Assembly (NCBI RefSeq): GCF_001854805.1
Contig: NZ_MBLO01000036.1
Coordinates: 192,534 to 256,533, forward strand
Direction of reading: 5' to 3'
DNA from: Pseudofrankia coriaricola
GTDB lineage: Bacteria; Actinomycetota; Actinomycetes; Frankiales; Frankiaceae
Length of the DNA stretch: 64,000 nucleotides
Below are positions 1-56,856 of this stretch, one piece after another. The first letter of the stretch is position 1. Each line of letters begins with the position of its first letter. A program made the position numbers and the translations under genes. Under the pieces are notes generated by a model. That model was not told where the DNA came from. It did no database searches and saw only the letters and a program-made list of their open reading frames with translations.

Positions 1-1
1 C

Positions 2-784
2 GGCTCCAGCACAACCTGGGGAAAGTTCGTCCATGACCAGGGCGGCACCCGCGCGGGCGTCTTCGCGATCGACACGAACGCCACGAACGGGGACTTCACC
101 CAGCAGATCGTGGCGAGCCTGAAGGCGAACGACGTCAAGGTCGTCAAGATGTTCTACACCGGTGAGATCACCAGCTGGCAGACCGTCGCCCAGCAGATCA
201 AGGCGAACAACATCGACGCCCTCGCGGGCGTTCTGCTCCCGGACGCGGCCGCCAAGCTGCTCCCCGAGCTCGCCAAGATCGGCATCACCCTCGGCGGCAG
301 CCTCAAGGTTGCCCAGATGCCGCTGGGCTACAGCAACAGCAACCTGACAACATACGGCGCGGCGCTCGCCGGTGCTTCCATCTTCACCGCCATCCAGCCC
401 TTCGAGCTCAACACCGCCGGCCAGCAGAAGTTCAAGCAGGCGATGAGCGACTACGCCCCCGAGATCCAACCGCCGACCCAGGACATGGCCGTCGACGGCT
501 GGATCTCCGCCGACCTGTTCATCCACGGCCTGCAGGCCGCGGGAAAATGCCCCACCAGGGAGTCCTTCATCAGCGGCCTGCGCGCCGTGAAGGACTACGA
601 CGGCGCGGGAATGACCCCCGACGCCAGCAACGATCTGTCCACGAACTTCCGCCAGACCTCGACCTGCTACTACGCCATCAAGGTCAGCTCGGACGGCTCC
701 AAGTTCGAGCCGACCAGTACCACGGCCATGTGTGGAAGCGTCATCAGCCCGGAGCAGATGGCCGCCCTGAACCAGCAGCACTGA
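2..784 (+). CDS. ABC transporter substrate-binding protein, 5' end missing (array copy 1)
   Basis: The reading frame is open from base 2, before any start codon, so the window edge removes the N-terminal part (signal peptide and first lobe). The remaining 260 residues match, almost residue for residue, the C-terminal part of the three complete paralogues downstream (shared segments include GGTRAGVFAI, LPDAAAKLLPELAKIGITL, QPFELNTAGQQKF, SDYAPEIQPPTQD and GKCPTRESFISGL). The family is the type I periplasmic binding fold used by branched-chain amino acid/amide (Liv-type) importers; it would be a lipoprotein that captures solute outside the membrane. The ligand is unknown. First member of a four-gene tandem array; a hairpin terminator follows. 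Confidence 0.88.
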   Translation, partial: GSSTTWGKFVHDQGGTRAGVFAIDTNATNGDFTQQIVASLKANDVKVVKMFYTGEITSWQTVAQQIKANNIDALAGVLLPDAAAKLLPELAKIGITLGGSLKVAQMPLGYSNSNLTTYGAALAGASIFTAIQPFELNTAGQQKFKQAMSDYAPEIQPPTQDMAVDGWISADLFIHGLQAAGKCPTRESFISGLRAVKDYDGAGMTPDASNDLSTNFRQTSTCYYAIKVSSDGSKFEPTSTTAMCGSVISPEQMAALNQQH

Positions 785-845
785 CGGCCGCAGAGGCAAC
801 CCGGCTGGCCCTTTGGTGGGGGCTGGCCGGTAAAATTCCGTGTAC

Positions 846-885
846 GGTCTTCGGGACGCCAGCACCTTCCGGCCTCCCGAAGACC
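846..885 (+). terminator. Hairpin terminator after binding-protein copy 1
   Basis: Arms GGTCTTCGGGA (846-856) and TCCCGAAGACC (875-885) are perfect 11-bp complements around an 18-nt loop, 62 bp after the stop codon. There is no T-tract, as is usual in GC-rich actinobacteria. The other two array spacers hold hairpins at the equivalent place. Confidence 0.6.
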
Positions 886-1073
886 TGTCGAGTACCCGCT
901 CACTACTCTTGACGTATACAAGAGGAGAAACCGCCCCGGTCCTGACGCGACGTCGCGTCAGGATCATCGTTTTCGGCGCAGGCAGAGATTGCGTCGATGG
1001 GCGACTCTCCCTGGACGGCGGACACCTGACCACCCGGGCAGGCACCGTCGCGATACGCCGAAGGAGCCGCGGC

Positions 1074-2363
1074 ATGTTATCGCCGGCGAAAAGCCGACTA
1101 ATAAGAGCAGCCACGCTTGCGGTCAGCGCCAGCGGCCTGGCCGCCTCCCTGACCGCCTGCGGCCAGGGAGGCGCGAGCGGAGCGGGCGGGGCGTGCTCGG
1201 CCACGGTGCCCGGCATCACGCCCACCGAGGTCAAGGCCGGGATGGTCTGGAGCGACACCGGGCCGGGGGCGGAAACCATGCGTTCCTTCCGGGCCGGCGT
1301 GGACGCGCGCCTCCACGTCGCCAACGAGGAGGACGGCGGCGTCTACGGCCGCAAGGTCACCTACGCCTGGCGCGACGACCAGGCCGACCCCGTCCTCAAT
1401 GTGTCCATGGTCCAGGAGCTCCTTGACCAGGAGAAGATCTTCGGGCTCATCTACGCTCCCGGCGGCGGCAGCGACTCAGCCAAGCTCCTGCAGGAACGCA
1501 ACATCCCCGTCACCGGCCTCGCCAGCGACCCGGTCTGGCTGGGGATGAACAACATGTTCTCGTGGTTCTACCTCGGGAATGGTTCCAGCACGTCCCTCGG
1601 TAAATACGTCCGCGAGCAGGGCGGCACCCGCGCGGGCGTCTTCGCGATCAGCGCGAGCGCCACCAACGGGGACTACACGCAACAGGTGGTGGCCAGCCTG
1701 AAGGCCAACAACGTCCAGGTCATCAAGACGTTCCCCACCAGCCAGATCACGAGCTACCAGGCAGTGGCCCAGCAGATCAAGGCGGAAGACATCGACACCC
1801 TCACCGGTGTCCTCCTCCCGGACGCCGCCGCCAAGCTGCTCCCCGAGCTCGCCAAGATCGGCATCACCCTCGGCGGCAGCCTCAAGGTCGCACTGATGCC
1901 CCTGGGCTACAACAACAGCAGCCTGGCGACATACGGCGCGGCGCTCGCCGGTGCGTCGATCTTCACCTCGGTCCAGCCCTTCGAGCTCAACACCGCCGGC
2001 CAGCAGAAGTTCAAGCAGGCGATGAGCGACTACGCCCCCGAGATCCAGCCACCGACCCAGGACCAGGCGGTGAATGGCTGGATCTCCGCCGACCTGTTCA
2101 TCCACGGCCTGCAGGCCGCGGGGAAATGCCCGACCAGGGAGTCCTTCATCAGCGGCCTGCGCGCCGTCAAGGACTACGATGGCGCCGGCCTGACCCCCAA
2201 CACCAGCAATGATCTGTCAACGAACTACCGCGAGATCTCGACCTGCTACTTCGCCATAAAGATCAGCAAAGACGGCTCCAGGTTCGAACCCAGCAGCTCC
2301 ACGGCCACCTGCGGAGACGTCATCACCCCGGAGCAGATGGCCGCGCTGAACCAGCAGCCCTAG
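1074..2363 (+). CDS. ABC transporter substrate-binding lipoprotein (array copy 2)
   Basis: 429 aa. The start at 1074 is chosen over longer in-frame options because AAGGAG lies 7 nt upstream (1061-1066) and because the protein then begins with a basic lipoprotein signal ending in lipobox LTAC (Cys at about residue 29). After a Gly/Ala linker and GACSATVPGITP comes the Liv-type two-lobe binding fold. The ligand is not deducible. Downstream are repeat copy 1 and a strong terminator, so each array gene looks like its own transcription unit. The copy is near-identical to copy 1 over its C-terminal half, which implies recent tandem duplication. Confidence 0.92.
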   Translation: MLSPAKSRLIRAATLAVSASGLAASLTACGQGGASGAGGACSATVPGITPTEVKAGMVWSDTGPGAETMRSFRAGVDARLHVANEEDGGVYGRKVTYAWRDDQADPVLNVSMVQELLDQEKIFGLIYAPGGGSDSAKLLQERNIPVTGLASDPVWLGMNNMFSWFYLGNGSSTSLGKYVREQGGTRAGVFAISASATNGDYTQQVVASLKANNVQVIKTFPTSQITSYQAVAQQIKAEDIDTLTGVLLPDAAAKLLPELAKIGITLGGSLKVALMPLGYNNSSLATYGAALAGASIFTSVQPFELNTAGQQKFKQAMSDYAPEIQPPTQDQAVNGWISADLFIHGLQAAGKCPTRESFISGLRAVKDYDGAGLTPNTSNDLSTNYREISTCYFAIKISKDGSRFEPSSSTATCGDVITPEQMAALNQQP

Positions 2364-2412
2364 AGGGCCAAAGGGTGTGCGAAAATGATCTTCCTTCGCA
2401 CACCCGGCGGCC
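2364..2412 (+). repeat. Dispersed palindromic repeat, copy 1
   Basis: Directly after the copy 2 stop codon. Arms GGGTGTGCGAA (2373-2383) and TTCGCACACCC (2395-2405) pair perfectly around loop AATGATCTTCC; flanks are GGCCAAA on the left and GGCGGCC on the right. Three more copies, in the opposite orientation on the plus strand, occur at 8773, 42698 and 45476 with the same loop and changed but still pairing arms. Confidence 0.8.
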
Positions 2413-2493
2413 GTTGTCCCCAGGATCACTGACGGGTCACGGAACGGCCCGGCCGGCCTCCTGGTGCAGGCGGCCCCGCGAATCCCGCGCACC

Positions 2494-2531
2494 GGCTCCG
2501 GGACGCCGGCAGACGCCGGCGTCCCGGAGCC
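2494..2531 (+). terminator. Strong hairpin between binding-protein copies 2 and 3
   Basis: A perfect 17-bp stem (2494-2510 with 2515-2531) closes on loop AGAC. No T-tract. It would isolate copy 3 from upstream transcription. Confidence 0.65.
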
Positions 2532-2736
2532 CCGCGGGGGTAAGTGCTTACTACTATCGACGTCACTAGGAGGAGCCAGCCGCACCTGGGCCGGCACGCC
2601 CGCCGCGTCGGATTCTCATCTCCGGCGCGATACCGGGCCGGCGTCGGCGGGAGGCTTCTCTTGCACAGCGGGCGGTCGCCCATCCGGGCGGCCACCGCCG
2701 CGACAATGCCGAAGGAAATGCCGAAGGAGCCGCAGT

Positions 2737-4026
2737 ATGCCGCTGCCCACCAGCAAGCGATTATCGAAAGCGGTCGCCCTCGCGGTCAGCGCCGGCGGCC
2801 TCGCCGCCTCCCTGACTGCCTGCGGCAACGGAGGCGCGAGCGGAGCTGGCGGGGCGTGCTCGGCCACGGTGCCCGGCATCACACCCACCGGCGTCAAGGC
2901 CGGGATGGTCTGGACTGACTCCGGGCCGGGGGCTGCCACCATGCGTTCCTTCCGGGCCGGCGTGGATGCCCGTCTCCACGTCGCCAACGAGAAGGACGGC
3001 GGCGTCTACGGCCGCAAGATCACCTACGCCTGGCGCGACGACCAGGGCGACCCGGCACTCAACGTGCCCATGGTCCAGGAGCTGCTCGACCAGGAGAAGA
3101 TCTTCGGGCTCATCTACGCCCCCGGCGGGGGGCGGGACTCGGCCAAGTTCCTGCAGGAGCGCAACATCCCGGTCACCGGCATCGCGAGCGACCCGGTCTG
3201 GCTGGGGATGAACAACATGTTCTCGTGGTTCTACCTCGGAGATGGCTCCAGCACCACCTGGGGCAAGTACATCCATGACCAGGGCGGCACCCGCGCGGCC
3301 CTCTTCTCGACGGCCCAGACCGCCGGGAACGGAGACTTCGCCTCGCAGATCACGGCGAGCCTGAAGGCAAACAACGTCAAGGTCGTCAAGACGTTCCTCA
3401 CCGGCCAGATCACGAGCTACCGGACCCTCGCCGAGCAGATCAAGGCGAACAACATCGACGCCCTTTCCGGCGTCCTGCTCCCGGACGCGGCCGCCAAGCT
3501 GCTCCCCGAGCTGGCCAAGCTCGGCGTCACCCTCGGCGGCAGCCTCAAGGTCGCGGTGATGCCGCTGGGCTACGACAACAGCAATCTCACCCAGTTCGGC
3601 CGCTCGATCGCCGGCGTGACCATCTTCACCGCCACCCAGCCGTTCGAGCTGAACACCCCCGGCCAGCAGGCGTTCGTGCGGGCGATGAGCGACTACGCCC
3701 CTGAGATCCAACCGCCGACGCAGGACCTTGCCGTGGACGGGTGGATCTCGGCGGACCTGTTCATCCGCGGCCTCGAAGCCGCCGGGAAATGCCCCACCCG
3801 GGAGTCCTTCATCACCGGCCTGCGTGCCGTCAAGGACTACGACGGCGCCGGCCTGACCCCCGACACCAGCATCGACCTGTCCACCAACCTCCACGAGACC
3901 TCGACCTGCTACTACGCCATCAAGATCAACAAAGATGGCACCGCATTCGAACCGACCAGCTCCACGGCCACCTGCGGAGACGTCATCACCCCAGCGCAGA
4001 TGACCGCCCTGAACCAGCAGCCCTGA
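2737..4026 (+). CDS. ABC transporter substrate-binding lipoprotein (array copy 3)
   Basis: 429 aa. ATG at 2737 has AAGGAG at 2724-2729 with the same 7-nt spacing as copy 2, and opens a lipoprotein signal (MPLPTSKRLSKA, then a hydrophobic stretch, lipobox LTAC). The body is a Liv-type (Peripla_BP_6-like) binding protein. Compared with copy 2 the protein diverges most in its middle and ligand-lobe segments (for example VMPLGYDNSNLTQFGRSIAG), while the hinge and C-terminal GKCPTRESFITGL block are kept, so the copies may differ in ligand range. An alternative upstream start in the same frame has no lipobox context and is less likely. Confidence 0.92.
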   Translation: MPLPTSKRLSKAVALAVSAGGLAASLTACGNGGASGAGGACSATVPGITPTGVKAGMVWTDSGPGAATMRSFRAGVDARLHVANEKDGGVYGRKITYAWRDDQGDPALNVPMVQELLDQEKIFGLIYAPGGGRDSAKFLQERNIPVTGIASDPVWLGMNNMFSWFYLGDGSSTTWGKYIHDQGGTRAALFSTAQTAGNGDFASQITASLKANNVKVVKTFLTGQITSYRTLAEQIKANNIDALSGVLLPDAAAKLLPELAKLGVTLGGSLKVAVMPLGYDNSNLTQFGRSIAGVTIFTATQPFELNTPGQQAFVRAMSDYAPEIQPPTQDLAVDGWISADLFIRGLEAAGKCPTRESFITGLRAVKDYDGAGLTPDTSIDLSTNLHETSTCYYAIKINKDGTAFEPTSSTATCGDVITPAQMTALNQQP

Positions 4027-4091
4027 CGGTTCGGGAACAGCCCGGCCGTCTCCTTGGTGGGGGCGGCCGGGCGAGAATCACGCGCACCGGG

Positions 4092-4120
4092 CCGGGGCGC
4101 CGGCAAAACCGGCGCCCCGG
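4092..4120 (+). terminator. Hairpin between binding-protein copies 3 and 4
   Basis: A 12-bp perfect stem CCGGGGCGCCGG / CCGGCGCCCCGG (4092-4103 and 4109-4120) with loop CAAAA, 66 bp after the stop codon of copy 3. Confidence 0.6.
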
Positions 4121-4317
4121 GCACCTCGCTGGGTGAGCGCTCATTACTATCGGCGTCCATGACAAGAGCCAGCCGCACCCGGGTCGCCGCGTCGGCGCAC
4201 CAGACCCACTTTCTCCGGCGCAGGACCGAGGCCGCGTCCATGCGCGGCTCCTGCGCGCGCCATGGACGCTTACCCGCCCGGGCGGGTACAGCCGCGATAT
4301 ACCGGCGGCGACGCGGC

Positions 4318-5595
4318 GTGTTATTACCGCCCAGCAACCGATTAATGCGGGCCGCGGCGGTCGCGTTCAGCGCGGGTGGACTGGCCGCCTCCCTGGCCGC
4401 TTGTGGCGGAGGCGGCGCGAACGGGGCGGGCGGGGCGTGCTCGGCGACGGTGCCCGGCATCACGCCCACCGAGGTCAAGGCCGGCATGGTCTGGAACGAC
4501 ACCGGGCCGGGGGCCGACGCCCTGCGGGCCTTCCGGGCCGGTGTGGACGCCCGCCTCCACGTCGCCAACGGCGAGAACGGCGGCGTCTACGGCCGCAAGG
4601 TCACCTACGCCTGGCGCGACGACGGGGGCGACCCCGCGCGCGACGAGCCCATGGTCAAGGAACTCCTCGACCAGGAGAAAGTCTTCGGGCTCGTCTACGC
4701 GCCCGGCGGCAGTCAGGAACCGGCCGAGCTGTTACGGGAACGCGGCATCCCGGTCACCGGCCTGGCCAGCGCCCCGGTCTGGCTGGGGATGAGCAACATG
4801 TTCTCCTGGTTCTACCTCGGAGACGGCTCCAGCACCACCTGGGGAAAATACGTCCGCGGCCAGGGCGGAACCCGCGCGGCCCTCTTCGCGCTCGGCTCGA
4901 GCGCCTCGAGCGGAGGCTTCACCCAGCAGGTCGCCGCGAGCCTGAAGACAGCCGACATCAAGGTCGTCAAGACGTTCAACGTCACCGAGATCACGAGCTA
5001 CCAGACGGTCGCCGAACAGATCAAGGCGAACAACATCGACACTCTCGCGGGCGTCCTGCTCCCGGACGCGACCGCCAAACTGCTCCCCGAGCTCACCAAG
5101 CTCGGCGTCAACCTCAGGGTCGTCCTGATGCCGACCGGCTACGACGGCAGCACCCTCACCCAGTTCGGCCCCACGCTCGCCGGCACGTCCATCTTCACCT
5201 CGATCCAGCCCTTCGAGCTCAATACCGCCGGCCAGCAGAAATTCAAGCAGGCGATGAGCGACTACGCCCCCGAGATCCAGCCGCCGGCCCAGGACCCCGC
5301 GGTGAACGGCTGGGTCTCGGCCGACCTGTTCGTCCGCGGCCTCGAAGCCGCCGGGAAATGCCCCACCCGGGAGTCCTTCATCACCGGCCTGCGTGCCGTC
5401 AAGGACTACGACGGCGCCGGGATAACCCCCGAGACCAGCATCGACCTGTCCACCAACTTCCGCGAGACCTCGACCTGTTACTACGCCATCAAGATCAGCA
5501 AAGACGGCTCCAGGTTCGAGCCGACCAGCTCCACGGCCATCTGCGGAGAAGTCATCACCCCGCAGCAGGTGGTGGCCCTGAACCAGCAGTCCTGA
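4318..5595 (+). CDS. ABC transporter substrate-binding lipoprotein (array copy 4)
   Basis: 425 aa from a GTG at 4318, which gives the same signal-peptide layout as copies 2 and 3 (MLLPPSNRLMRAA, hydrophobic core, lipobox LAAC). Unlike them it lacks an AAGGAG ribosome site, so translation may be weaker; an ATG at 4240 is in frame but would add a long Arg-rich tail. It is the most diverged copy: the GGSLKV segment is shortened (NLRVVLMPTGYDGSTL) and NVTEITSYQ replaces the usual Thr/Ser-rich loop. The Liv-type binding function is inferred from the fold family. It converges on the TetR gene. Confidence 0.88.
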   Translation: MLLPPSNRLMRAAAVAFSAGGLAASLAACGGGGANGAGGACSATVPGITPTEVKAGMVWNDTGPGADALRAFRAGVDARLHVANGENGGVYGRKVTYAWRDDGGDPARDEPMVKELLDQEKVFGLVYAPGGSQEPAELLRERGIPVTGLASAPVWLGMSNMFSWFYLGDGSSTTWGKYVRGQGGTRAALFALGSSASSGGFTQQVAASLKTADIKVVKTFNVTEITSYQTVAEQIKANNIDTLAGVLLPDATAKLLPELTKLGVNLRVVLMPTGYDGSTLTQFGPTLAGTSIFTSIQPFELNTAGQQKFKQAMSDYAPEIQPPAQDPAVNGWVSADLFVRGLEAAGKCPTRESFITGLRAVKDYDGAGITPETSIDLSTNFRETSTCYYAIKISKDGSRFEPTSSTAICGEVITPQQVVALNQQS

Positions 5596-5616: not shown

Positions 5617-5652
5617 GGTTCGCCCGTCACCCCTCGGCGTGGCGGGCGAACC
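5617..5652. terminator. Bidirectional terminator between binding-protein copy 4 and TetR gene
   Basis: Arms GGTTCGCCCG (5617-5626) and CGGGCGAACC (5643-5652) form a 10-bp stem. The stop codon of the minus-strand regulator (5627-5629) lies in the loop, so the hairpin can serve both converging genes. Confidence 0.5.
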
Positions 5653-6316
5653 CTCCCGAGCAGAAGTCCCACACCTCGTCCGTCGTGAGCGGGTGGGCGC
5701 CCTCGCTCTCCCCCGCGACCGCGGTCGACTGGGCGAGGAACATCACCGACTGCATGACCATCGCGGCCGCCCGGCGCGGGCGCAGGCTCGTCCGCAGCTG
5801 GCCGACCGCGTCGACGCGGGTCATCAGCTCCGCGAACACGCTGAGCATCGGCTCGTGCGCGGACCTGACCTCGGCCGGGTAGGTCATCAGCAGCTGCGTG
5901 GCGAAGTCCGTGAACAGCGGGTGGCGGGTGGACGGATCCGGCAGCGAGCTCTCGAACAGCATCCGGATGCCGACCTCGAGCCCGGCCAGCGGGTCGACCT
6001 CGGCCGCCGCCGCGGCGCGGATCTCGTCCGCGGAGCGGCGCAGGGCGTTCTCGAACAGCGCCAGCAGCAGCTCGTGCTTGCCGCCGAAGTGCTGGTAGAA
6101 GCTGCGCAGCGACTGGTGCGACCGGTCGACGACCTCCTGTACGGTGAAGTCGGTCGACCCCTTCTCCAGGATGATCTCTTGGGCGGCCTCGAGGAACTGC
6201 TGCACCTTGCGCTCGGCGCGCAGGCGCGCGGCCTTGGTAGAGCGCTCGACGGCACGCTGCTTCCAAGCTGGCTCGTCACTCAGCGTGCTCAAAGCAAGCT
6301 CCTGGTCCTGCGCCAT
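5627..6316 (-). CDS. TetR-family transcriptional regulator
   Basis: 229 aa. The N-terminal third is a TetR DNA-binding domain: helices around FLEAAQEIILEKG, then TVQEVVDRS and SLRSFYQHFGGKHELLLALFE (about residues 40-90). The rest is an all-helical ligand domain without an obvious inducer signature. I prefer the ATG at 6316 (MAQDQELA), because family similarity begins at LSDEPAWKQRAV just after it; in-frame starts up to 6382 exist. It is divergent from a paired ACAD operon, and the 17-bp palindrome at 6408 lies between them, which is the usual layout for a TetR autorepressor that also controls its neighbour and senses an acyl-CoA or related ligand. Confidence 0.9.
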   Translation of the reverse strand: MAQDQELALSTLSDEPAWKQRAVERSTKAARLRAERKVQQFLEAAQEIILEKGSTDFTVQEVVDRSHQSLRSFYQHFGGKHELLLALFENALRRSADEIRAAAAAEVDPLAGLEVGIRMLFESSLPDPSTRHPLFTDFATQLLMTYPAEVRSAHEPMLSVFAELMTRVDAVGQLRTSLRPRRAAAMVMQSVMFLAQSTAVAGESEGAHPLTTDEVWDFCSGGFARHAEG

Positions 6317-6407
6317 GAGTAGAACGTACTCCTCACCCTGCGTCCAGCCACGTGCGCTCTTTGCTCCCATCCCCCGCGCCACCCGCGAGACCGCTGCTTC
6401 CGTCTTC

Positions 6408-6424
6408 GGAGAATGTTATTCTCC
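6408..6424. promoter_or_regulatory. Palindromic operator, GAGAAT-type, site A1
   Basis: GGAGAAT-GTT-ATTCTCC is a perfect 7-bp inverted repeat with a 3-nt centre, in the divergent promoter region of the TetR gene and the ACAD pair. The same core recurs upstream of other catabolic genes at 20999 and 45707. TetR binding is inference. Confidence 0.7.
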
Positions 6425-6494: not shown

Positions 6495-7553
6495 ATGCTC
6501 TTTGAGCTGGACTCCGACCAGCAGCTGTGGCGCACGACCGTCCGCGATGTCCTCGCGAAGGAGTGCCCGCCCGCGCTGGTCCGTTCCGTCGCCGACCAGG
6601 GCGCGGATCCGGGGCCGCTGTGGCGGACCTACACCGGCCTCGGCTGGACCGAGCTGACCGAGACGACAGAGGCGGTCGAGCTCGCGATCCTGCTCGAGGA
6701 GCTCGGCCGGGCCACCGACCCTACGCCCTACCTGGCGACCATGACCTGGTTCACCCCGCTCGCCCCGGGCGTCGTCTCCGGTGACCAGACCGGCACCGCC
6801 GTCCTCGAGGGCGTCACCGCCCACCGTGACCCGCACGGCGACGAGGGCTGGATCCTCGACGGCACCGGCCACCACGTCCTCGACGGCGACCGCGCCGACT
6901 GGTTCGCTGTGGTCACCGACGCCGGGGTGTTCACCGTGCCCGCCTCCGAGGCGACGGTCCACCGCGAGAACGCCTTCGACCCGCTGCTGCACGTCGCCGA
7001 CGTCAGCTTCTGGCAGGTCAGGGTCGGCGAGGAGAGCCGGACCGGCGCCGACGTCGACCTCGCCCGCGACATCGCGCTCACCGGCCTCGCGCTGACCATG
7101 GTGGGCGCCTGCCGGCGGGTTCTGGATCTCACGCTCGATCACGTGCGCACCCGCCAGCAGTTCGGCGTCCCGATCGGCTCGTTCCAGGCCGTCAAGCACA
7201 AGGCCGTCGACATGCACGTGGCGATCGAACGCGCGACCGCGCTCGCCTACTTCGCCGCGCTGACGATCGCCGAACAGGACCCGCGGCGCGCGACCGCCGC
7301 CGCGATGGCCAAGGCGGCCGCCGGCGAGTGCACGACGGTCGTGTTCGAGAACGGCTTCCAGCTGTTCGGCGGCATGGGCTTCACCTGGGAGAACGACCTG
7401 CAGTTCGCGCTGAAGCGGGCGCTGTCCGGCGAGTTGCTGCTCGGCGGCGCCGACGTCCACCGGGCCAGGGTCGCCGCCGCGCTGCTCGACGCCGACGCGG
7501 TGACCCCGGCGGCCAGCATCACCTCGGAGGAGCGCCATGCGGCTGCGGTTTGA
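6495..7553 (+). CDS. Acyl-CoA dehydrogenase family protein, short partner subunit
   Basis: 352 aa; ATG at 6495 follows GGGAG. The N-terminal helical part is reduced and the middle beta domain is poorly conserved, while the C-terminal helical domain is clear (TRQQFGVPIGSFQAVKH, FQLFGGMGFTWENDL). Such short, diverged ACADs in actinobacteria usually pair with a canonical ACAD to form a heterotetramer (as in the FadE28/FadE29 type), where one subunit supplies most FAD contacts. The next gene overlaps by 17 bp and is that canonical partner. It would oxidise an acyl-CoA side chain to the enoyl-CoA; the substrate is unknown. Confidence 0.87.
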   Translation: MLFELDSDQQLWRTTVRDVLAKECPPALVRSVADQGADPGPLWRTYTGLGWTELTETTEAVELAILLEELGRATDPTPYLATMTWFTPLAPGVVSGDQTGTAVLEGVTAHRDPHGDEGWILDGTGHHVLDGDRADWFAVVTDAGVFTVPASEATVHRENAFDPLLHVADVSFWQVRVGEESRTGADVDLARDIALTGLALTMVGACRRVLDLTLDHVRTRQQFGVPIGSFQAVKHKAVDMHVAIERATALAYFAALTIAEQDPRRATAAAMAKAAAGECTTVVFENGFQLFGGMGFTWENDLQFALKRALSGELLLGGADVHRARVAAALLDADAVTPAASITSEERHAAAV

Positions 7554-8712
7554 CGACGACGTCGAGGCGTTCCGCGCCGAGTTCGCGGCCTTCCTCGACG
7601 CGAACCTGCCCAGCGTCGAGGAGGCCGCCGAGCGGCCCACCTCCACCGCGCACATGCCGGCGTGGACGAGGCGCTGGCAGCGGCTGCTGTTCGACAACGG
7701 CTGGCTGCTGCCGGGCAACCCGCCCGAGTACGGCGGTCGGAACGCCACGCTGCTGCAGCAGTTCGTCCACCTGGAGGAGCTGGGCAGCCGGCACATTTAC
7801 CACAGCTTCAACCCGCAGGGCCTCGGCATCATCGCCGCCTCCCTGCTCACGTTCGGCACCGAGGAGCAGAGGAAGCGCTGGGCGGTGCCGATCCTCAAGG
7901 CCGAGATCACCGCGGCGCTCGGCATGAGCGAGCCGGGCGCGGGCTCCGACCTCGCCGGGCTGCGCACCCGGGCGGTGCTCGACGGCGACCACTTCGTGGT
8001 CAACGGGCAGAAGATCTGGACCTCCGGCGCGCACGACGCGGACATCCTGCTTACGTTCGTGCGTACCGACCCGGACGCGCCCAAGCACAAGGGCATCAGC
8101 GTCCTGGTGATCCCGACCGACCTCCCGGGCATCACCCGCCGGCCGTTCGGCTCGATCGTGGGCGCGGACGACCTCGACTTCAACGAGGTCTTCTTCGACG
8201 ACGTCCGGGTCCCGGCGGAGAACCTGATCGGCCAGCTGAACAAGGGCTGGCACGTCGCGAACGGCTCATTGGGCCATGAGCGCACGATGCTGTGGCTCAG
8301 CTTCGCCGAGCGGCTCGACGAACTGGTCGACGACTTCCGCCCGACGACGACGCTGGACCGCGACCGATACGCCACCCTCGCGATGGACGCGCAGGCGCTG
8401 CGGCTGCTCGGCTCCGCCGCGCTGGCCCGGGCCGCGCGCGGCGAGGAGGACGTGGCCTCGATCTCGGTGCTCAAGCTGTTCGGCTCGGAGTCGGTCCGCA
8501 CGGCCACCCGGCAGGCGCTGCTCGCCCAGGGTTCCGCGGGGCTGGCCCGCGACGGGCAGACCAGGCCGTTCGAGCACCTGAACCTCGACTGGTTCTACGG
8601 GAGCTGGTTCGAGCGGTACGCGCGCAGCTTCTCCGGCACCATCGCTGGCGGAACGTCCGAGATCCAGCGCACGATTGTCGCCGAGCGGGTCCTCGGCCTG
8701 CCCCGGGGCTGA
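7537..8712 (+). CDS. Acyl-CoA dehydrogenase, canonical partner subunit
   Basis: 391 aa; ATG preceded by GGAGG and overlapping the previous gene by 17 bp, indicating translational coupling. Standard ACAD layout: N-terminal helices, MSEPGAGSDLAGL (FAD/substrate loop), QKIWTSGAH, beta-domain INFFDDVRVP-like FFDDVRVPAENLIG, and C-terminal AGGTSEIQRTIVAERVLGLP. The position that holds catalytic Glu in medium-chain enzymes (YEGT) reads AGGT here, so the base must lie elsewhere, as in several long-chain and steroid-side-chain types. Likely forms a complex with the preceding short subunit. Confidence 0.92.
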   Translation: MRLRFDDDVEAFRAEFAAFLDANLPSVEEAAERPTSTAHMPAWTRRWQRLLFDNGWLLPGNPPEYGGRNATLLQQFVHLEELGSRHIYHSFNPQGLGIIAASLLTFGTEEQRKRWAVPILKAEITAALGMSEPGAGSDLAGLRTRAVLDGDHFVVNGQKIWTSGAHDADILLTFVRTDPDAPKHKGISVLVIPTDLPGITRRPFGSIVGADDLDFNEVFFDDVRVPAENLIGQLNKGWHVANGSLGHERTMLWLSFAERLDELVDDFRPTTTLDRDRYATLAMDAQALRLLGSAALARAARGEEDVASISVLKLFGSESVRTATRQALLAQGSAGLARDGQTRPFEHLNLDWFYGSWFERYARSFSGTIAGGTSEIQRTIVAERVLGLPRG

Positions 8713-8850: not shown

Positions 8851-9648
8851 TTGTACATTCTCTACGACGTCGCCGACAACATCGCGACGATCACGTTAAA
8901 CCGGCCGGAAGCCGCCAACGCGCAGAACGGCCCTCTTCTGGAGGAGCTCAACGACGCCTGGGTCAAGGCGGCCGAAGACCCGGATGTGAAGGTCATCATC
9001 CTGCGCGGCGAGGGCAAGCACTTCTCCGCCGGCCACGACCTGAAGCCGGACCCCTCCACCCCGGTGCCCGCGAAGATGACGCTTGAGCACATCTACCAGG
9101 TCGAGGCCCGGCGCTACCTGGAGTTCTCGCTGCGCTGGCGCAACATCCCGAAGCCGTCGATCGCCGCGGTCCAGGGCCGCTGCATCGCCGGCGCGCTGCT
9201 GCTGTGCTGGCCGTGCGACCTGATCGTCGCGGCGGACGACGCGAAGTTCTCCGACCCGGTGGTCGCGATGGGCATCGGCGGCGTCGAGTACCACGGCCAC
9301 ACCTGGGAGCTCGGGGCGCGCAAGGCCAAGGAGATCCTCTTCACCGGCCGGGCGATCACCGCCGAGGAGGCGGAGAAGGTCGGCATGGTGAACAAGGTCG
9401 TGCCACGCGCTGACCTCGACAAGGAGACCAGGGTGCTCGCGGAGCAGATCGCCGCGATGCCGTCGTTCGGCCTGCGCCAGGCCAAGCGCGCCGTCAACCA
9501 GACCCTCGACGTGCAGGGCTTCTACGCGGCGATCCAGTCGGTCTTCGACGTCCACCAGACCGGCCACGGCAACGCCCTGTCCGTCGCCGGGTACCCGATC
9601 CTGGTCAACCTCGACCAGATGAAGACCACCATCAAGTCCGCCAACTAG
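8851..9648 (+). CDS. Enoyl-CoA hydratase/isomerase family protein
   Basis: 265 aa from a TTG at 8851 preceded by GGGAG; no in-frame ATG or GTG lies nearby. Crotonase features: NRPEAANAQNGPL, oxyanion-hole segment GKHFSAGHDLKPD, IAAVQGRCIAGALLLCWPCDLIVAADDAKF and the usual C-terminal helices. The insert around residues 70-90 (DPSTPVPAKMTLEH) is longer than in typical hydratases. Probably hydrates or isomerises an enoyl-CoA made by the upstream ACAD pair; 138 bp and two repeats separate them, so co-transcription is uncertain. A strong terminator follows. Confidence 0.88.
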   Translation: MYILYDVADNIATITLNRPEAANAQNGPLLEELNDAWVKAAEDPDVKVIILRGEGKHFSAGHDLKPDPSTPVPAKMTLEHIYQVEARRYLEFSLRWRNIPKPSIAAVQGRCIAGALLLCWPCDLIVAADDAKFSDPVVAMGIGGVEYHGHTWELGARKAKEILFTGRAITAEEAEKVGMVNKVVPRADLDKETRVLAEQIAAMPSFGLRQAKRAVNQTLDVQGFYAAIQSVFDVHQTGHGNALSVAGYPILVNLDQMKTTIKSAN

Positions 9649-43939: not shown

Positions 43940-45454
43940 TCACCGCAGCTGGTCCTTCATTACCTTGCCCGTCGCGTTCAACGGGAGGGCGTCGAGGAAC
44001 TCGACATATCGCGGCGCCTTGAACCCGGCCATCCGCACCTTGGACCAGGACATGACCTCCTCGGCGGATACCTGAGCACCCGCGCGGAGTACCAGGAACG
44101 CCTTGCACACCTCGCCCAGCCGCTCGTCGGGCACGCCGATGACGGCGGCCTGGGCGACGGCCGGGTGCTCCAGGAGGTATCCCTCGATCTCGGCGGGATA
44201 GGCGTTGAACCCGCCGACGATGAACATGTCCTTCTTGCGGCCGACGATCTTCAGGTAACCACGCTCGTCGAGGGAGCCGAGGTCGCCGGTGTGCAGCCAG
44301 CCGTCGGCGTCGATCGTCTCGGCGGTGGCCTTCGGGTCGTCGAAGTAGCCCTGCATGACGCTGTAGCCGCGGATGAGCACCTCGCCGTCACCGGCGACCG
44401 CGACCTCGATGCCGTCGCAGGGCGCGCCGACGGTCGTCGCGATCGACTCGAACGAGTCGCCGGGACGGGAGGCCGTGGCGGTGCCGGCCTCGGTGAGCCC
44501 GTAGCCGGTCATGATGTGCTGGAACGGCAGCTCGGCCTTCATCCGGCGGATGAGCTCCACCGGGATGTCGGCCGAGCCGGTGACCGCGCAGCGCAGAGAT
44601 GAAAGGTCGTGCCAGGCTCTGCCACCTTCGGCCAAGTGCGGGCCGCTGGCCTCCAGCAGCGAGTGGTAGATGGTCGGCGCGCCCGGGAGCATGGTGACCT
44701 TCTCCCGCTCGACCAGCTCGCCGACCTTGTCCACATCAAAGACGGCCAGCGGCAGAATGGTCGCGCCACGAATGAGTGACGCGACAAGCCCTGCCTTGTA
44801 GCCGAACGTGTGGAAGAACGGGTTGACGATCAGGTACCGGTCGCCCTCGCGCAGATCGGCCTGGTAACACCACTCGGAATACAGCCGCAGGGTCTGCCGG
44901 TGGTTCATCATCACGCCCTTGGGGCGCCCGGTGGTGCCGGAGGTGAAGATGATGTCGGCGATGTCGCCGCCGTCGACCTCCCGCTCGAACGGCGAGCCGC
45001 TCGTGAGGAAGTCCGACTTCAGGTCGATGTTCGTGACCCCGTCCGGCACCTCGTAGTCGATACCGAGGAAGCCGGGCTGGGTGAGCACGGCCTTGGCACC
45101 GCTGCGCACGATGATGTCGGCGGCCTCGGCCGCCTTGTAACGGGTATTGACGGGAACCAGGACACCGCCGGCGGTCAGCAGTCCAAAGGCCGCAATCGCC
45201 CACTCGGCGGAGTTGGGCGCCCAGATAGCCACCCGGTCGCCCTTGCCAACGCCAAGCGCGGCGAACGCGCCGGCCGCCCGGCGGACCCGCTCGACCAGTT
45301 GGACATAGGTCAGGCGCAGGTCACCGTCGACGAGCGCCTCGGCGTCACCGAACCGCTCCGCGGTGCTGGCCACCATCCGCGGGATGGTGTCCCACGGCAG
45401 CCCCGTGAACGTCGCGCTCTCGGTGCTCCCGGCAATCCTGAGGTCCCCGGCCAC
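43940..45454 (-). CDS. AMP-forming acyl-CoA synthetase (FadD-like)
   Basis: 504 aa; GTG at 45454. Complete ANL enzyme: TYVQLVERVRRAAGAFAALG, IIFTSGTTGRPKGVMMNH (P-loop), MTGYGLTEAGTATAS, LHTGDLGSLDERGYLKIVGRKKDMFIVGGFNAYPAEIE and LPLNATGKVMKDQL (catalytic Lys). Resembles FadD3/FadD17-type fatty or steroid-acid ligases. Repeat copy 4 and a GAGAAT operator lie upstream, in a 260-bp leader after the stop of the previous ligase gene. Confidence 0.92.
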   Translation of the reverse strand: MAGDLRIAGSTESATFTGLPWDTIPRMVASTAERFGDAEALVDGDLRLTYVQLVERVRRAAGAFAALGVGKGDRVAIWAPNSAEWAIAAFGLLTAGGVLVPVNTRYKAAEAADIIVRSGAKAVLTQPGFLGIDYEVPDGVTNIDLKSDFLTSGSPFEREVDGGDIADIIFTSGTTGRPKGVMMNHRQTLRLYSEWCYQADLREGDRYLIVNPFFHTFGYKAGLVASLIRGATILPLAVFDVDKVGELVEREKVTMLPGAPTIYHSLLEASGPHLAEGGRAWHDLSSLRCAVTGSADIPVELIRRMKAELPFQHIMTGYGLTEAGTATASRPGDSFESIATTVGAPCDGIEVAVAGDGEVLIRGYSVMQGYFDDPKATAETIDADGWLHTGDLGSLDERGYLKIVGRKKDMFIVGGFNAYPAEIEGYLLEHPAVAQAAVIGVPDERLGEVCKAFLVLRAGAQVSAEEVMSWSKVRMAGFKAPRYVEFLDALPLNATGKVMKDQLR

Positions 45455-45475
45455 TCTGAGTGCCTCTGGGGACGC

Positions 45476-45527
45476 GGGCCGCCGGGCATGCGAAGGAAGA
45501 TCATTCTCGCATGCCCTTTGGCCCTCT
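45476..45527 (-). repeat. Dispersed palindromic repeat, copy 4
   Basis: Core 45484-45516: arms GGGCATGCGAA and CTCGCATGCCC around GGAAGATCATT. The outer stem GGGCATGCGA/TCGCATGCCC is perfect although its bases differ from copies 1-3, i.e. compensatory change. CTTTGGCCCTC follows as in copy 3. Confidence 0.8.
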
Positions 45528-45706
45528 CGGTTCTCTGTCACCTGGACGTCCTCGTCACTCGGCTTCCTGGTTCCGTACTCGGCTTCCTGGTTCCATCGCG
45601 GCGGCGCTCAGCGGTCGATCAGCCGTCGATCGGCCCGATGTGGTCGCTCGTGTCGACGACCGGGTCCGGCGAGCGCGTCGACATGAGATCCATCCTTGCT
45701 CAAGGC

Positions 45707-45721
45707 GAGAATCCTATTCTC
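45707..45721. promoter_or_regulatory. Palindromic operator, GAGAAT-type, site A3
   Basis: GAGAATCCTATTCTC is a perfect 6-bp inverted repeat with a 3-nt centre, the same core as site A1. It overlaps the stop codon of the upstream ligase and lies 253 bp before the downstream ligase start. Confidence 0.6.
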
Positions 45722-53841: not shown

Positions 53842-53943
53842 ATGGAAGCGGTCCTGACCCGAGAACCGCCGCTCAACGTGGTCCTGACCTGGGACGCCGA
53901 TCGCGGAAGCGGTCCTCCTGGGACGACGTCGGGAGACTCCTCC

Positions 53944-56856
53944 ATGTCACACATCGCCTCGCTCCTGCTCGGGCTCGGCAACGGCGCGGTGTTCGCCGCG
54001 CTCGCGCTCGCGCTGGTGCTGACCTACCGAAGCTCGGGGGTCATCAACTTCGCGACAGGAGCGATCGCTCTCTACGTCGCCTACACCTACGCGGACCTGC
54101 GAGAAGGCGAGTTACTGGTTCCGATTCCGGGCCTGCCAACGACCGTCAACCTCGGAACGGACAGCATGCCGTTCCTTCCGGCGGCGTTGCTCGCTCTGGC
54201 GATCGGCGCGCTGCTAGGCGCGCTGCTCTACGCGGTCGTCTTCCGCAAGCTGCTGGACGCGCCGCCGCTAGCCAAGGCGGTGGCCTCACTGGGCGTGCTG
54301 GTCATTATCCAGCAGGTGATGGTGATCCGGGTTGGTGTGGCGCCGGTCAGCGTCGAGCAGATCTTCCCGGCGGAGCGCTGGAAGTTCGGCTCGCTGACCG
54401 TGCTGTCCGACCGGTTCTACCTGGCCGTGGCCGTGGTCGTGCTGACCCTGGTGCTCACGGCGGTGTTCCGGTTCACCCGGTTCGGCCTGCTGACCAGGGC
54501 CACGGCCTCCTCGCAGACCGGCGCCTACGTCAGCGGCGTGTCCGCCTCCCGGGTGGCCCTGACCAACTGGATGATCAGCTGCGCGGTCGCGGGTGCCGCC
54601 GGCATCCTCATCGCGCCGGTCAGCCCGCTCGCGCCAACGACCTACACGCTGTTCGTGGTGCCGGCGCTGGCCGCGGCCGTGGTCGGCGGGTTCCAGAACC
54701 TGGTGCCGAGCGTGATCGCCGGCCTCGTGATCGGCATGGTCCAGGCCGAGGCGCTGTCGCTGGCCGCGCAGCACTCGTGGCTACCCAGGACCGGCTCGGC
54801 CGAGCTGGTGCCCCTCATCGTCATCGTGATCGCGCTGCTGGCGACGGGCCGGGCGATGCCCGTGCGCGGTGGCCTGGTGCGCCAGTCGCTGGGGCTGGCC
54901 CCCCGGCCGCGCTCCCTCACCCTGCCGACGGTCGCCGGCACCGTCGTCGGTGTCCTGTTCCTGGTCCTCCTCCACGGCACCTGGCGCGCCGCCGTCATCG
55001 GCACCATCATCGCCGCGGTCATCGGCCTGTCGCTGATCGTCGTCACCGGTTACGCCGGCCAGGTGTCGCTCGCCCAGCTCGCGCTCGCCGGCGCGGGCGC
55101 GTTCCTGCTGTCGAACCTCACCCAGAGCTGGCACATCCCGTTCCCGTTCGCGCCGCTGCTCGCGGCGCTCGGTGCCACCGTCCTGGGCGTCGTCATCGGC
55201 CTGCCGGCGCTGCGACTACGCGGTCTGACCCTCGGCGTGGTCACGCTCGCGCTCGCCTACGCCATCGAGGCGGTCTGGTTCCGCAACACCCAGATCGTCA
55301 GCACCTCGGGCGCGAAGGTCAGCGACCCGAAGATCTTCGGCCTCAACCTTGGGATCGGCAGCGGGCATGCTTTCCCCCGCCTGGAGTTCGGCCTGCTCTG
55401 TCTGTTCGTGCTGGTGGTGGTGGCGTTCGGTGTCGCGAAGCTGCGGATGAGCGCGCTGGGCTCGGCGATGCTCGCCGTGCGGGCCAACGAGCGCTCCGCC
55501 GCCGGTATCGGCATCAACGTGGTGCGGATCAAGGTCATCAGCTTCGCGATCGGGTCGTTCATCGCCGGCCTCGGCGGCGCGCTGCTCGCCTACCGGCGCG
55601 GCGTGGTCACCTTCGACTCGTTCTCCGCGGTCGGCGGTCTGTCGCTGCTGACGGTCGCCTACCTAGCCGGCATCACGTCAGTGTGGGGCGGTGTCAACGC
55701 CGGCCTCATCGCCAGCACCGGCATCTTCTTCATCGCGATGGACCGCTGGATCCACCTCGGCGACTGGTTCCAGGTCCTCACCGGCATCGGTCTGCTCGCC
55801 GCCCTCGTCGGCCACCCGGAGGGCCTCGCCAGCGACGCGCACAAGCTCGTGCACAAGGCCCGAGGTCTCCTGGAAAGCAGACGCCCAGCGACGCCGGTCG
55901 CCGCCCCGGTGCCGGCACTGGCGGGCATCCCTACCAACGGTCTGGCGGCCGGAGGCTCCGGGGCGCTGGATGCCCCGGCCACGCGCGCGACCACCGTGTC
56001 CGCTCCCCTGGCCTCGGTCGCCGTGGCGGGCGCCCAGGCGACGGCGCCGACCGGCGGTCACGGCGAGGTCCTGGAGGTGTCCGGCCTCACCGTCCGCTAC
56101 GGCGGTGTGACCGCGGTCGACGACATCGCGCTGCGTGTCGAGCCGGGCAAGATCGTCGGTCTCATCGGCCCGAACGGCGCCGGCAAGACCAGCGCCATGG
56201 ACGCCATCACCGGCTTCGCCCGGGCCAGCGGCAGCGTCACGCTCGGCGGCCAGCGCATCGACGGGCTCGCCTCGCACGTCCGGGTACACAAGGGCCTCGC
56301 GCGCACGTTCCAGTCGCTCGAGCTCTATGAGGAGCTCACCGTCGAGGAGAACGTGTCCGCCGCCCTCAGCGGCGTGCGCGGCCACGAGCGCCACCAGCGT
56401 CTCGCCGCCGCCCTCGCCGTGACGGGCATCGCCGACCGGGCCGACCGGCAGGCCGGCGAGCTCTCCCAGGGCGAGCGCCAGCTGGTGTCCATCGCCAGGG
56501 CCTGCGCCTCACGCCCGAATGTGCTGCTGCTAGACGAGCCGGCCGCCGGCCTGGACAGCACCGAGTCGGCCTGGCTCGGCGAGCGCATCCGCGGCATCGC
56601 CGCGGGCGGCGCGGGCGTCCTGCTCGTCGACCACGACGTCGCGCTGGTGCTCGGCGTCTGCGACTACATCTACGTGCTCGAGTTCGGCAAGCTCATCGCC
56701 GAGGGCACGCCGGCCGAGATCCGCGCCAACCGGCTCGTGGCCGACGCCTACCTCGGCAACGCCCACAGCACACCCGACCCGGCGCCCGCGGACGAGCAGG
56801 CCGCCGCGAGCGACGCCCAGCAGACGGCCAACGAGTCCCCGGCGGTGACGGCATGA
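53944..56856 (+). CDS. Branched-chain-type ABC transporter: LivH-LivM-LivG fusion
   Basis: 970 aa; ATG at 53944 (GGGAG upstream) is preferred to a longer frame from 53842. Residues 1-300: LivH permease (LLLGLGNGAVFAALALALVL, GVINFATGAIALYVAY). Residues 320-640: LivM permease (GTWRAAVIGTIIAAVIGLSL, GYAGQVSLAQLALAGAGAFL). Residues 700-930: LivG ATPase with Walker A GPNGAGKTSAMDA, signature LSQGERQLVSIAR, Walker B VLLLDEPAAGLD and VDHDVALVLG. An Ala/Pro linker joins the permease to the ATPase. Imports branched-chain amino acids, amides or aromatic acids; no binding protein is encoded nearby. Confidence 0.93.
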   Translation: MSHIASLLLGLGNGAVFAALALALVLTYRSSGVINFATGAIALYVAYTYADLREGELLVPIPGLPTTVNLGTDSMPFLPAALLALAIGALLGALLYAVVFRKLLDAPPLAKAVASLGVLVIIQQVMVIRVGVAPVSVEQIFPAERWKFGSLTVLSDRFYLAVAVVVLTLVLTAVFRFTRFGLLTRATASSQTGAYVSGVSASRVALTNWMISCAVAGAAGILIAPVSPLAPTTYTLFVVPALAAAVVGGFQNLVPSVIAGLVIGMVQAEALSLAAQHSWLPRTGSAELVPLIVIVIALLATGRAMPVRGGLVRQSLGLAPRPRSLTLPTVAGTVVGVLFLVLLHGTWRAAVIGTIIAAVIGLSLIVVTGYAGQVSLAQLALAGAGAFLLSNLTQSWHIPFPFAPLLAALGATVLGVVIGLPALRLRGLTLGVVTLALAYAIEAVWFRNTQIVSTSGAKVSDPKIFGLNLGIGSGHAFPRLEFGLLCLFVLVVVAFGVAKLRMSALGSAMLAVRANERSAAGIGINVVRIKVISFAIGSFIAGLGGALLAYRRGVVTFDSFSAVGGLSLLTVAYLAGITSVWGGVNAGLIASTGIFFIAMDRWIHLGDWFQVLTGIGLLAALVGHPEGLASDAHKLVHKARGLLESRRPATPVAAPVPALAGIPTNGLAAGGSGALDAPATRATTVSAPLASVAVAGAQATAPTGGHGEVLEVSGLTVRYGGVTAVDDIALRVEPGKIVGLIGPNGAGKTSAMDAITGFARASGSVTLGGQRIDGLASHVRVHKGLARTFQSLELYEELTVEENVSAALSGVRGHERHQRLAAALAVTGIADRADRQAGELSQGERQLVSIARACASRPNVLLLDEPAAGLDSTESAWLGERIRGIAAGGAGVLLVDHDVALVLGVCDYIYVLEFGKLIAEGTPAEIRANRLVADAYLGNAHSTPDPAPADEQAAASDAQQTANESPAVTA

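Follow-up and report, generated by a model that had tools for sequence, protein, structure and literature searches.

A five-gene tandem array of Liv-type binding lipoproteins within an acyl-CoA catabolic island of Pseudofrankia: a candidate receptor bank for hydrophobic carboxylates

In LivJ of Escherichia coli, the residues that contact the ligand are presumably Ser79 and Thr102, which hold the carboxylate, together with Tyr150, Tyr202 and Glu226, the last of which holds the amino (ammonium) group. A structure also exists for the substrate-binding protein (SBP) of a fatty-acid ABC transporter from Thermomonospora curvata, which is itself actinobacterial (4n03). On the catabolic side, PMC11342911 describes ACAD10/11 and LvaA/LvaC as acting on 4-hydroxyacyl-CoA.

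The locus considered here lies in Pseudofrankia coriaricola and was analysed through a window of 64,000 nucleotides, meaning the whole stretch of DNA. Given the observed gene content, synteny, copy-number series, paralogue-specific divergence and palindrome distribution, and the predicted fold, it is considered somewhat probable that the array is a receptor bank for hydrophobic carboxylates, tandemly duplicated on repeated occasions within a TetR-controlled island and feeding one shared permease.

The array and its catabolic island

Five paralogous SBP genes (g1-g5) are arranged head to tail, according to ORF coordinates in the genome itself. An earlier note on the window had recognized the head-to-tail paralogues but counted four, the first of them partial; the count is five because g1 lies outside the window, and the 'partial' gene, g2, is whole. 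It had seemed truncated because the window begins one base past a single N, which is the base before position 1 and falls inside g2. The array is no assembly artefact, since a related genome (G006) carries an orthologous five-gene array on an 8.19-Mb contig. The genes and their downstream neighbours are as follows (window positions unless stated).

G000:C36:190424-191719, upstream of the window: g1
1..784 in the window, whole gene -508..784 (L031:10026-11318), plus strand: g2, complete, 430 aa
1074..2363, plus strand: g3, 429-aa lipoprotein with a Peripla_BP_6 domain
2737..4026, plus strand: g4, 429 aa
4318..5595, plus strand: g5, 425 aa, GTG start, 4-aa gap opposite g3 residues 265-268
5627..6382, minus strand: TetR-family regulator, closing the array
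6410..6422, unstranded: palindrome AGAATGTTATTCT, candidate operator, between the TetR and acyl-CoA dehydrogenase genes
6495..7553, plus strand: acyl-CoA dehydrogenase 1, overlapping dehydrogenase 2
7537..8712, plus strand: acyl-CoA dehydrogenase 2
8851..9648, plus strand: enoyl-CoA hydratase
43940..45541, minus strand: FadD3-family acyl-CoA ligase, preceded by a candidate operator
45708..45720, unstranded: second copy of the palindrome in the window, AGAATCCTATTCT

The other paralogues were 65-83% identical to g3. A profile search of the whole genome, which found 103 Peripla_BP_6 domains, placed all five proteins over the curated Pfam cut-off of 31.7 bits; the three that were scanned individually scored 235.5 (g3), 258.3 (g1) and 234.1 bits (g5). 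Lipoboxes read by eye were LAAC, LVAC, LTAC, LTAC and LAAC in gene order, each ending at Cys29, which is invariant in the alignment, and the five proteins are thus predicted to be lipidated and anchored to the membrane through this cysteine.

The TetR-family regulator had a match in 8/8 genomes of the genus searched, and the palindrome AGAATnnnATTCT preceded the TetR gene in all 12 of 12 genomes, exactly in 11 and with one mismatch in the other. Within 11.2 Mb this palindrome occurred four times, always within 56 kb around the array, against 0 control matches. The array spacers contained no copy, L031 having only three sites at up to one mismatch. AGAATnnnATTCT is therefore a candidate operator that the TetR protein may bind, and from this sequence pattern the neighbouring regulator most likely controls the catabolic island.

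The array is flanked by genes of acyl-CoA catabolism, including a split ACAD11-like pair upstream, in which an APH-type kinase (PF01636) adjoins an ACAD11-type dehydrogenase with acyl-CoA dehydrogenase domains, as in the ACAD11/LvaAC module. The dehydrogenase matched ACAD11 at 252.7 bits, compared with 146.6 bits for the first chain outside the ACAD11 group, and its four best PDB sequences were three of ACAD11 plus 4hr3. The kinase matched ACAD11 at 85.3 bits; its two best matches were 9o56 and 3dxp, with ACAD11 in third and fourth place. By analogy with the activity described in PMC11342911, the pair would act on 4-hydroxyacyl-CoA by phosphorylation and elimination.

The slot occupied by the array, with ACAD-APH-quinone-oxidoreductase-like genes upstream and TetR (minus strand) plus acyl-CoA dehydrogenases downstream, was conserved with its flanks in 6/8 genomes. 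These six, the present genome included, held 5, 5, 4, 3+1, 2 and 2 SBP genes in the slot; a seventh had a rearranged locus with one SBP gene next to the oxidoreductase, and the eighth had none there. Among the matches listed from the open-licence literature, no title or abstract opening on Frankia, Pseudofrankia or tandem SBP arrays described the array.

Spacers and the unit of duplication

The spacers between the genes contain recurrent elements, which are listed here for the three spacers in the window (all plus strand; promoter function is putative throughout).

801..830: stem-loop 1 of spacer g2-g3, 13 pairs, close to the stop codon
846..885: stem-loop 2 of spacer g2-g3
898..910: promoter-like element of g3, GCTCACTACTCTT, 176 nt before the start, position conserved
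2373..2405: stem-loop 1 of spacer g3-g4, close to the stop codon
2494..2531: stem-loop 2 of spacer g3-g4, 17 pairs, zero mismatches
2546..2558: promoter-like element of g4, GCTTACTACTATC, 191 nt before the start
4040..4072: stem-loop 1 of spacer g4-g5
4092..4120: stem-loop 2 of spacer g4-g5
4139..4151: promoter-like element of g5, GCTCATTACTATC, 179 nt before the start, overlapping the palindrome TGAGCGCTCA

The sequence GCTCAYTACTATC was found 170-191 nt 5' of the start codon, at up to two mismatches, in 10 of 11 g2-g5-type spacers from three genomes (N_232d was excluded from the comparison), M_3 being the exception. The relatedness of the spacers proposed in the earlier note was thereby borne out, in the form of a common promoter-like element at a near-constant distance from the start codon. 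Since this element and the ribosome-site region recur among the array units, the tandem duplication of gene-plus-upstream units was likewise supported; at some dispersed copies, too, the final ~120 nt of the leader could be discerned by eye. The duplicated unit would comprise the promoter element, a leader of ~170 nt and the gene, copied repeatedly at one fixed slot within the conserved island. At up to one mismatch, the only matches in the genome were three in the array plus a single one on contig C38, so the element looks array-specific. A genome-wide regulon was rejected, as 45 matches at up to two mismatches were fewer than the 59 in the reversed control.

The strong hairpin claimed for each spacer was present in all three within the window, but neither the g1-g2 spacer nor two orthologous g1-g2 spacers had one at the threshold used. 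Over the initial ~145 nt of each spacer, folding z was -0.32 for g1-g2, -3.84 for g2-g3, -2.06 for g3-g4 and -4.29 for g4-g5; an extra 70-nt piece of the g3-g4 spacer, whose boundary fell inside stem-loop 2, gave +1.67. A simple terminator scan of the region returned nine sites against 4.1 expected, of which the only one on the plus strand lay within the g3 leader, and therefore the scan credited none of the spacer hairpins beyond a leader with a T run. By eye, a strong hairpin leading into CTTTCT was seen in the QOR-g1 spacer, which is absent from the scan's list. The sigma-70 promoter scan found one site, on the minus strand, against 0.6 expected. Each array gene may have its own promoter and termination, and separate expression is plausible from these sequence features.

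A conserved leader RNA or riboswitch was also considered, using a consensus fold of ten leaders out of 18 upstream regions compared. Compensatory change affected 8/32 consensus pairs, but the covariation term was +0.59, giving no net support, and the idea was discarded. In L031:8000-16500, every Rfam family stayed below its gathering score.

Divergence among the paralogues

Differences between the paralogues peaked at residues 106-135, 181-225 and 271-300, and these segments were mostly kept among orthologues of g2 and of g4. For residues 166-230, pN was 0.01-0.06 between g2 or g4 orthologues, as against 0.16-0.22 among the paralogues g2-g5 of the same genome; orthologues of g3 gave 0.13 and 0.26, about the paralogue level. 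The near-identity once ascribed to the C-terminal halves is confined to residues ~301-375 (78-97% similarity among g2-g5), and does not extend to residues 376-420 (71-78%) or 271-300 (58-67%). Recent gene conversion was rejected as an explanation for the likeness of the C-terminal ends, because longest-run permutation tests on silent codons identified no significant pair in three arrays (lowest p = 0.20, 0.15 and 0.11, for 10, 10 and 6 pairs). In larger sets, single pairs with p = 0.007 (of 45 pairs) and p = 0.015 (of 91) were non-significant after correction.

The array proteins could be compared with LivJ through a weak alignment of 25-26 bits. In it, Ser79 aligned with residue 128 (Ala in g3-g5, Ser in g2, Met in g1), Thr102 with the invariant Ser151, Tyr150 with Thr, Ser or Gly, Tyr202 with the invariant Leu247, and Glu226 with Leu277 in g1-g4 and Thr in g5. 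Three of these five positions varied among the paralogues, compared with 186/384 positions overall, which is no enrichment. Cleft-side loops (70/384 positions, a set picked after viewing the model; p one-sided and uncorrected) held 33/138 residues variable among g2-g5 (p = 0.023), 7/20 orthologue-conserved differences of g2-g5 (p = 0.052) and 8/34 such differences for all five groups (p = 0.26); as a control, they held 40/184 residues varying within orthologues (p = 0.057), almost as enriched. The sequence A_1, which has an X, was omitted from the structure alignment and entered the half-gene trees without its first ~42 residues. Of the widened ligand range that the earlier note had envisaged, the concentration of paralogue change, rather than an even spread, was confirmed, but its tie to the ligand cleft is weak.

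A tentative reading is that the slot, within a hydrophobic-acid catabolic island under TetR control, is a receptor nursery, whose copies were repeatedly duplicated with their own promoters, diversified at about residues 106-135, 181-225 and 271-300, and feed one distant shared permease, so that transporter range would evolve by receptor addition alone. Somewhat more doubtful is that duplication served dosage, five copies binding the same ligand while the multiple promoters increase receptor abundance. The overall identity to g3, the promoter-like element common to the copies, the invariance of Ser151 and Leu247, the deviation of residue 277 in g5 alone, and contacts no more variable than the rest would all suit such a function. 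However, it sits poorly with variation that is focused on three segments and, in g2 and g4, largely preserved from one species to another, and with the difference at residue 128 between g1, g2 and g3-g5.

Phylogenetic analysis of the array and dispersed copies (rooted on C7 alone, with supports given for clades of <16 leaves) placed g2-g5 and the later slot copies of a related genome, G004 (N_232b-d), in different clades, the latter joined by two dispersed G004 copies with support of 1.0; this suggests that the slot expanded separately in the two genomes. Dispersed relatives within the present genome (C29, C223, C53, C263 and C169) fell among the array genes, which would fit an origin in the array itself or in a common pool. 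One sequence, A_3, grouped with g4 by its N-terminal half (support 0.98) and with g2 by its C-terminal half (0.82), and so an old mosaic origin is possible.

Ligand class, permease and described systems

The structure model of g3 (pLDDT 83.4) has the two-lobe PBP-I fold, with 4n03 as its top match (Z = 32.6). Close behind were the valine-bound SBP 3lkb (Z = 30.5) and LivK/LivJ-type structures (29.2-29.4), while the first two Foldseek matches by E-value were 4-hydroxybenzoate SBPs; the fold by itself does not single out a ligand. The amino-acid label is doubtful because Glu226 is lost, the top-Z match is a fatty-acid SBP and the flanking genes belong to acyl-CoA catabolism. A reading of the proteins as LivJ/LivK-type receptors was not supported, given that the residues aligned with Glu226, Tyr150 and Tyr202 are replaced, with a hydroxyl kept at the Thr102 position; through the invariant Ser151 and the Ser of g2 at the Ser79 position, part of the carboxylate site could nonetheless suit an amino acid.

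It is accordingly unlikely that these are ordinary branched-chain amino acid receptors, neutrally duplicated beside incidental catabolic neighbours. Peripla_BP_6 scores over the cut-off, the distant relationship to LivJ and LivK, the valine and leucine binders near the best structural match, the Ser at the Thr102 position in g1-g5, and the commonness of duplication implied by 103 domains would agree with this; yet three LivJ contacts are replaced in all five proteins, the best Z belongs to a fatty-acid SBP, slot and flanks persist in 6/8 genomes, and differences are preserved within g2 and g4 orthologues. The ligands would rather be hydrophobic carboxylic acids, most likely fatty, hydroxy-fatty or alicyclic/aromatic acids.

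Permease and ATPase genes, which adjoin the receptor in a complete Liv system, do not adjoin the array. On its contig, BPD_transp_2 matches were confined to 64-66 kb and 246-248 kb, with none less than 48 kb downstream or less than 100 kb upstream of the array. A fused Liv permease lies 48 kb downstream, with no adjoining binding protein.

53842..56856, plus strand: fused permease ORF, LivH-LivM-LivG-type, 1004 aa, two BPD_transp_2 domains, ATPase end read by eye
56853..57617, plus strand: LivF/UrtE-type ATPase, below curated cut-offs

An NCBIfam scan of the first 353 aa of the fused ORF gave no match at E 1e-30. The permease was linked to the array in four relatives also, at 34-50 kb across the five genomes, and neither was found in G002. 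Its partnership with the array receptors is suggested by this linkage, although another permease may serve them since the genome has 78 BPD_transp_2 matches; among the SBP matches listed for G001 and G006, one in G006 lay 42 kb beyond the permease. That the proteins are sensory or scaffold lipoproteins, signalling without transport or permease, is quite improbable. The distance of any BPD_transp_2 permease and the Liv fold of the amide sensor AmiC (1qo0), which is among the structural matches, would agree with it; yet five genomes show linkage between the array and a solitary permease, and the search of G002 found neither.

As a receptor bank, the array would probably pass its acids to a single shared Liv-type permease, for which the fused set is the best candidate; the imported acids would be ligated to CoA by the FadD3-family ligase, and any 4-hydroxyl removed by the ACAD11-like pair before beta-oxidation. 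If true, this would point to the duplication of receptors at a fixed catabolic locus, rather than the copying of whole transporters, as the way in which a soil actinobacterium that has some hundred Liv-type receptor domains broadens its diet. Caution in annotation would follow, as proteins here named branched-chain amino acid receptors may bind lipid-like acids. TetR and AGAATnnnATTCT offer a regulator-operator pair open to testing, and the fused set a candidate shared permease.

Among described systems, the Thermomonospora curvata SBP aligned with g3 over 363 residues at an rmsd of 3.9, with only ~20% identity, so that the likeness is structural. The aromatic-acid SBPs of Rhodopseudomonas palustris (4evs, 4f06, 4ey3) and the 3-hydroxybenzoate SBP of Bordetella (4q6w) were among the top matches by both sequence and structure (Z = 27-29). 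E. coli LivJ and LivK have the fold in common with the array proteins and are distantly related in sequence; the hydroxyl at Thr102 is preserved as Ser151, whereas Tyr150, Tyr202 and Glu226 are not kept, and the array lacks an adjoining livHMGF. As for the ACAD10/ACAD11 and LvaA/LvaC pathway, homologues of its kinase and dehydrogenase adjoin each other upstream of the array but, unlike ACAD10/ACAD11, they are two separate genes, with predicted activity.

Composition of the array and its spacers

Tandem genes for solute-binding proteins (SBPs) are, as such, of a known kind; what is new here is a fixed slot, probably expanded repeatedly, within a palindrome-defined catabolic island. The host genome is 11.2 Mb in size, the window lying at 192534-256533 of contig 36 (C36), and, judged by these proteins, Pseudofrankia asymbiotica and Frankia nepalensis are among its nearest named relatives. 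The earlier observation of four tandem Liv-type lipoprotein genes, the first partial, was sound in outline; the array is real, but it comprises five genes (g1-g5) and the supposed fragment is complete:

C36:190424-191719: g1, entirely upstream of the window
g2: complete gene; the base preceding window position 1 is N

The proteins measure 431, 430, 429, 429 and 425 aa (g1 to g5), and identity to g3 was 65% for g1, 83% for g2, 79% for g4 and 75% for g5; the description of their C-terminal halves as near-identical was judged wrong. Peripla_BP_6 scored well above cut-off in the three members scanned, and all five were among the 103 family matches in the genome. Eleven matches exceeded 700 bits in this subfamily, i.e., the five array genes and six dispersed copies. 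Genes for short-chain dehydrogenase, thiolase, P450, luciferase-like monooxygenase and methylmalonyl-CoA mutase were found near the dispersed copies (18 chosen neighbouring ORFs), and these surroundings are also compatible with catabolism.

The spacers, from g1-g2 to g4-g5, are 305, 289, 373 and 291 nt long. An element resembling GCTCAYTACTATC was located 170-191 nt 5' of the start in 10 of 11 g2-g5-type spacers from three genomes. Four later spacers, from three further genomes, contained weaker forms at -165 to -178, with 2, 2, 4 and 5 mismatches. At one mismatch or fewer, the host genome has four matches to the 13-mer, three of them at array promoters and the other at an unrelated site. The final ~120 nt before the start resembled, by eye, those of some dispersed copies, in whose upstream regions (also compared by eye) the promoter element was absent. 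Given the recurring element and the similar leader ends, gene and upstream region were duplicated as whole units, as the earlier note had proposed. Its hairpin in every spacer was borne out for g2-g3, g3-g4 and g4-g5, but no strong stem-loop was detected between g1 and g2. The spacer data are compatible with separate transcription and termination of the units. Upstream of one dispersed copy, C53 (stretch L103), a long inverted repeat, CCCCGGTGTATAC...GTATACACCGGGG, was seen by eye in the place of the array genes' promoter element.

Evolution of the slot

The upstream flank of the slot is conserved (ACAD, APH kinase and quinone-oxidoreductase-like genes), and is represented on L031, which covers the host array and its upstream region, by:

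L031:4742-6043 and 6040-7095: split ACAD11-like dehydrogenase plus APH kinase, upstream of the array, with a four-base overlap

Downstream, a minus-strand TetR gene is followed by acyl-CoA dehydrogenases and, in stretches that extended far enough, by an enoyl-CoA hydratase. The slot held five copies in the host genome and in G006, four in G005, two each in G001 and G003, one in G007 (where the locus was rearranged) and none in G002. G004 had 3+1 copies, split by a 7.5-kb insert; by eye, this insert (L098:9000-16500), inside the orthologous array, carries TetR, aldehyde dehydrogenase, F420-type oxidoreductase, P450 and short-chain dehydrogenase genes.

In trees, position orthologues clustered across species, in three genomes for g1, g2 and g4 and in two for g3 and g5; A_3, a relative's array copy, grouped with g4. 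One group united the host g2-g5 with five dispersed host copies, one G006 copy and one G004 copy, while the G001 and G003 slot copies, together with the later ones of G004, formed a separate clade (0.99). This placement in different clades suggests that the slot has probably expanded more than once. For residues 166-230, pN between orthologues was 0.01-0.03 for g2, 0.03-0.06 for g4, 0.05-0.11 for g1, 0.08 for g5 and 0.13-0.26 for g3; among the paralogues g2-g5 of the host, pN was 0.16-0.22 and pS 0.16-0.34. On these pN values, g2 and g4 show a clear pattern of divergence and later conservation, which g3 lacks. No gene conversion was detected inside the array.

The palindrome and a candidate transporter

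The TetR gene closing the array had matches in 12 of 25 genomes searched (E 1e-60), and in all 12 the palindrome AGAATnnnATTCT stood immediately 5' of it; the match was exact in 11 genomes and had one mismatch in G027. The host genome contains exactly four copies, all within 56 kb (C36:182026-238253):

window 6410-6422: palindrome
window 45708-45720: palindrome
L031:27-39: palindrome
L031:4701-4713: palindrome

One precedes an upstream TetR gene, one the ACAD11-like genes and one a FadD3-family ligase; the remaining copy separates TetR from the dehydrogenases. The reversed control had no match in this genome, and the palindrome was absent from the array spacers. Seven relatives had 31 sites (controls 0); those tied to array, TetR or permease stretches or contigs numbered 4/7 in G001, 4/6 in G003, 4/4 in G004, 4/5 in G005, 3/3 in G006 and 1/3 in G007. 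In the array-less G002 one of three sites was at TetR, the others being 25 and 43 kb off. The palindrome is a candidate operator of a TetR regulon. At L145:2136-3719 of G001, a further Liv-type receptor gene has an off-island copy 144 bp 5' of its longest open frame.

No permease adjoins the array. A possible partner is:

window 53842-57617: ORF combining two Liv-type permease domains with an ATPase end (the end identified by eye), and a LivF-type gene

There is no receptor or binding protein alongside these genes, and the array, at 48 kb, is the closest receptor set on that contig (complete list for the host genome). In G001, G003, G005 and G006 a distance of 34-50 kb separates the permease orthologue from the array, and in G004 and G007 the orthologue is on other contigs than the array; in G002, neither it (at E 1e-150) nor the array was found. 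Guilt by association thus points to a putative partnership of permease and array.

Predicted ligand class and comparison with known systems

The AlphaFold2 model of g3 (pLDDT 83.4, pTM 0.81) matched PBP-I proteins. The highest Z was for 4n03, a fatty-acid SBP (32.6); aromatic-acid SBPs (27-29) and Leu/Val binders (27-30.5) came near it, and therefore the ligand cannot be deduced from the fold alone. Foldseek E-values ranked R. palustris 4-hydroxybenzoate proteins first and second, and 4n03 sixth.

We take Ser79, Thr102, Tyr150, Tyr202 and Glu226, all verified in the E. coli sequence, to be the contacts by which LivJ clamps its amino acid, Glu226 presumably holding the amino group. In a weak alignment these correspond to Ala128, Ser151, Thr197, Leu247 and Leu277 of g3; across the five array proteins, as weakly aligned, the Glu226 position is Leu or Thr, whereas the hydroxyl of Thr102 is kept. 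Compared with LivJ, and subject to that weak alignment, this is what would be expected of a receptor for a carboxylate lacking an amino group. With moderate confidence, the ligand class should be shifted from amino acids to hydrophobic carboxylates. Three of the five contact positions vary in the array, compared with 186 of all 384 positions, and so lend no support to specialisation of the pocket.

Each half of ACAD11 has a match upstream of the array, one in the dehydrogenase gene and the other in the kinase gene. PMC11342911 describes ACAD11 as phosphorylating 4-hydroxyacyl-CoA and then eliminating phosphate, feeding beta-oxidation, and bacterial LvaA/LvaC as carrying out the same phosphorylation and elimination. 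By homology, the pair is likely to be a 4-hydroxyacyl-CoA module; as against ACAD11, homologues of both halves are present at the array flank as separate, overlapping genes.
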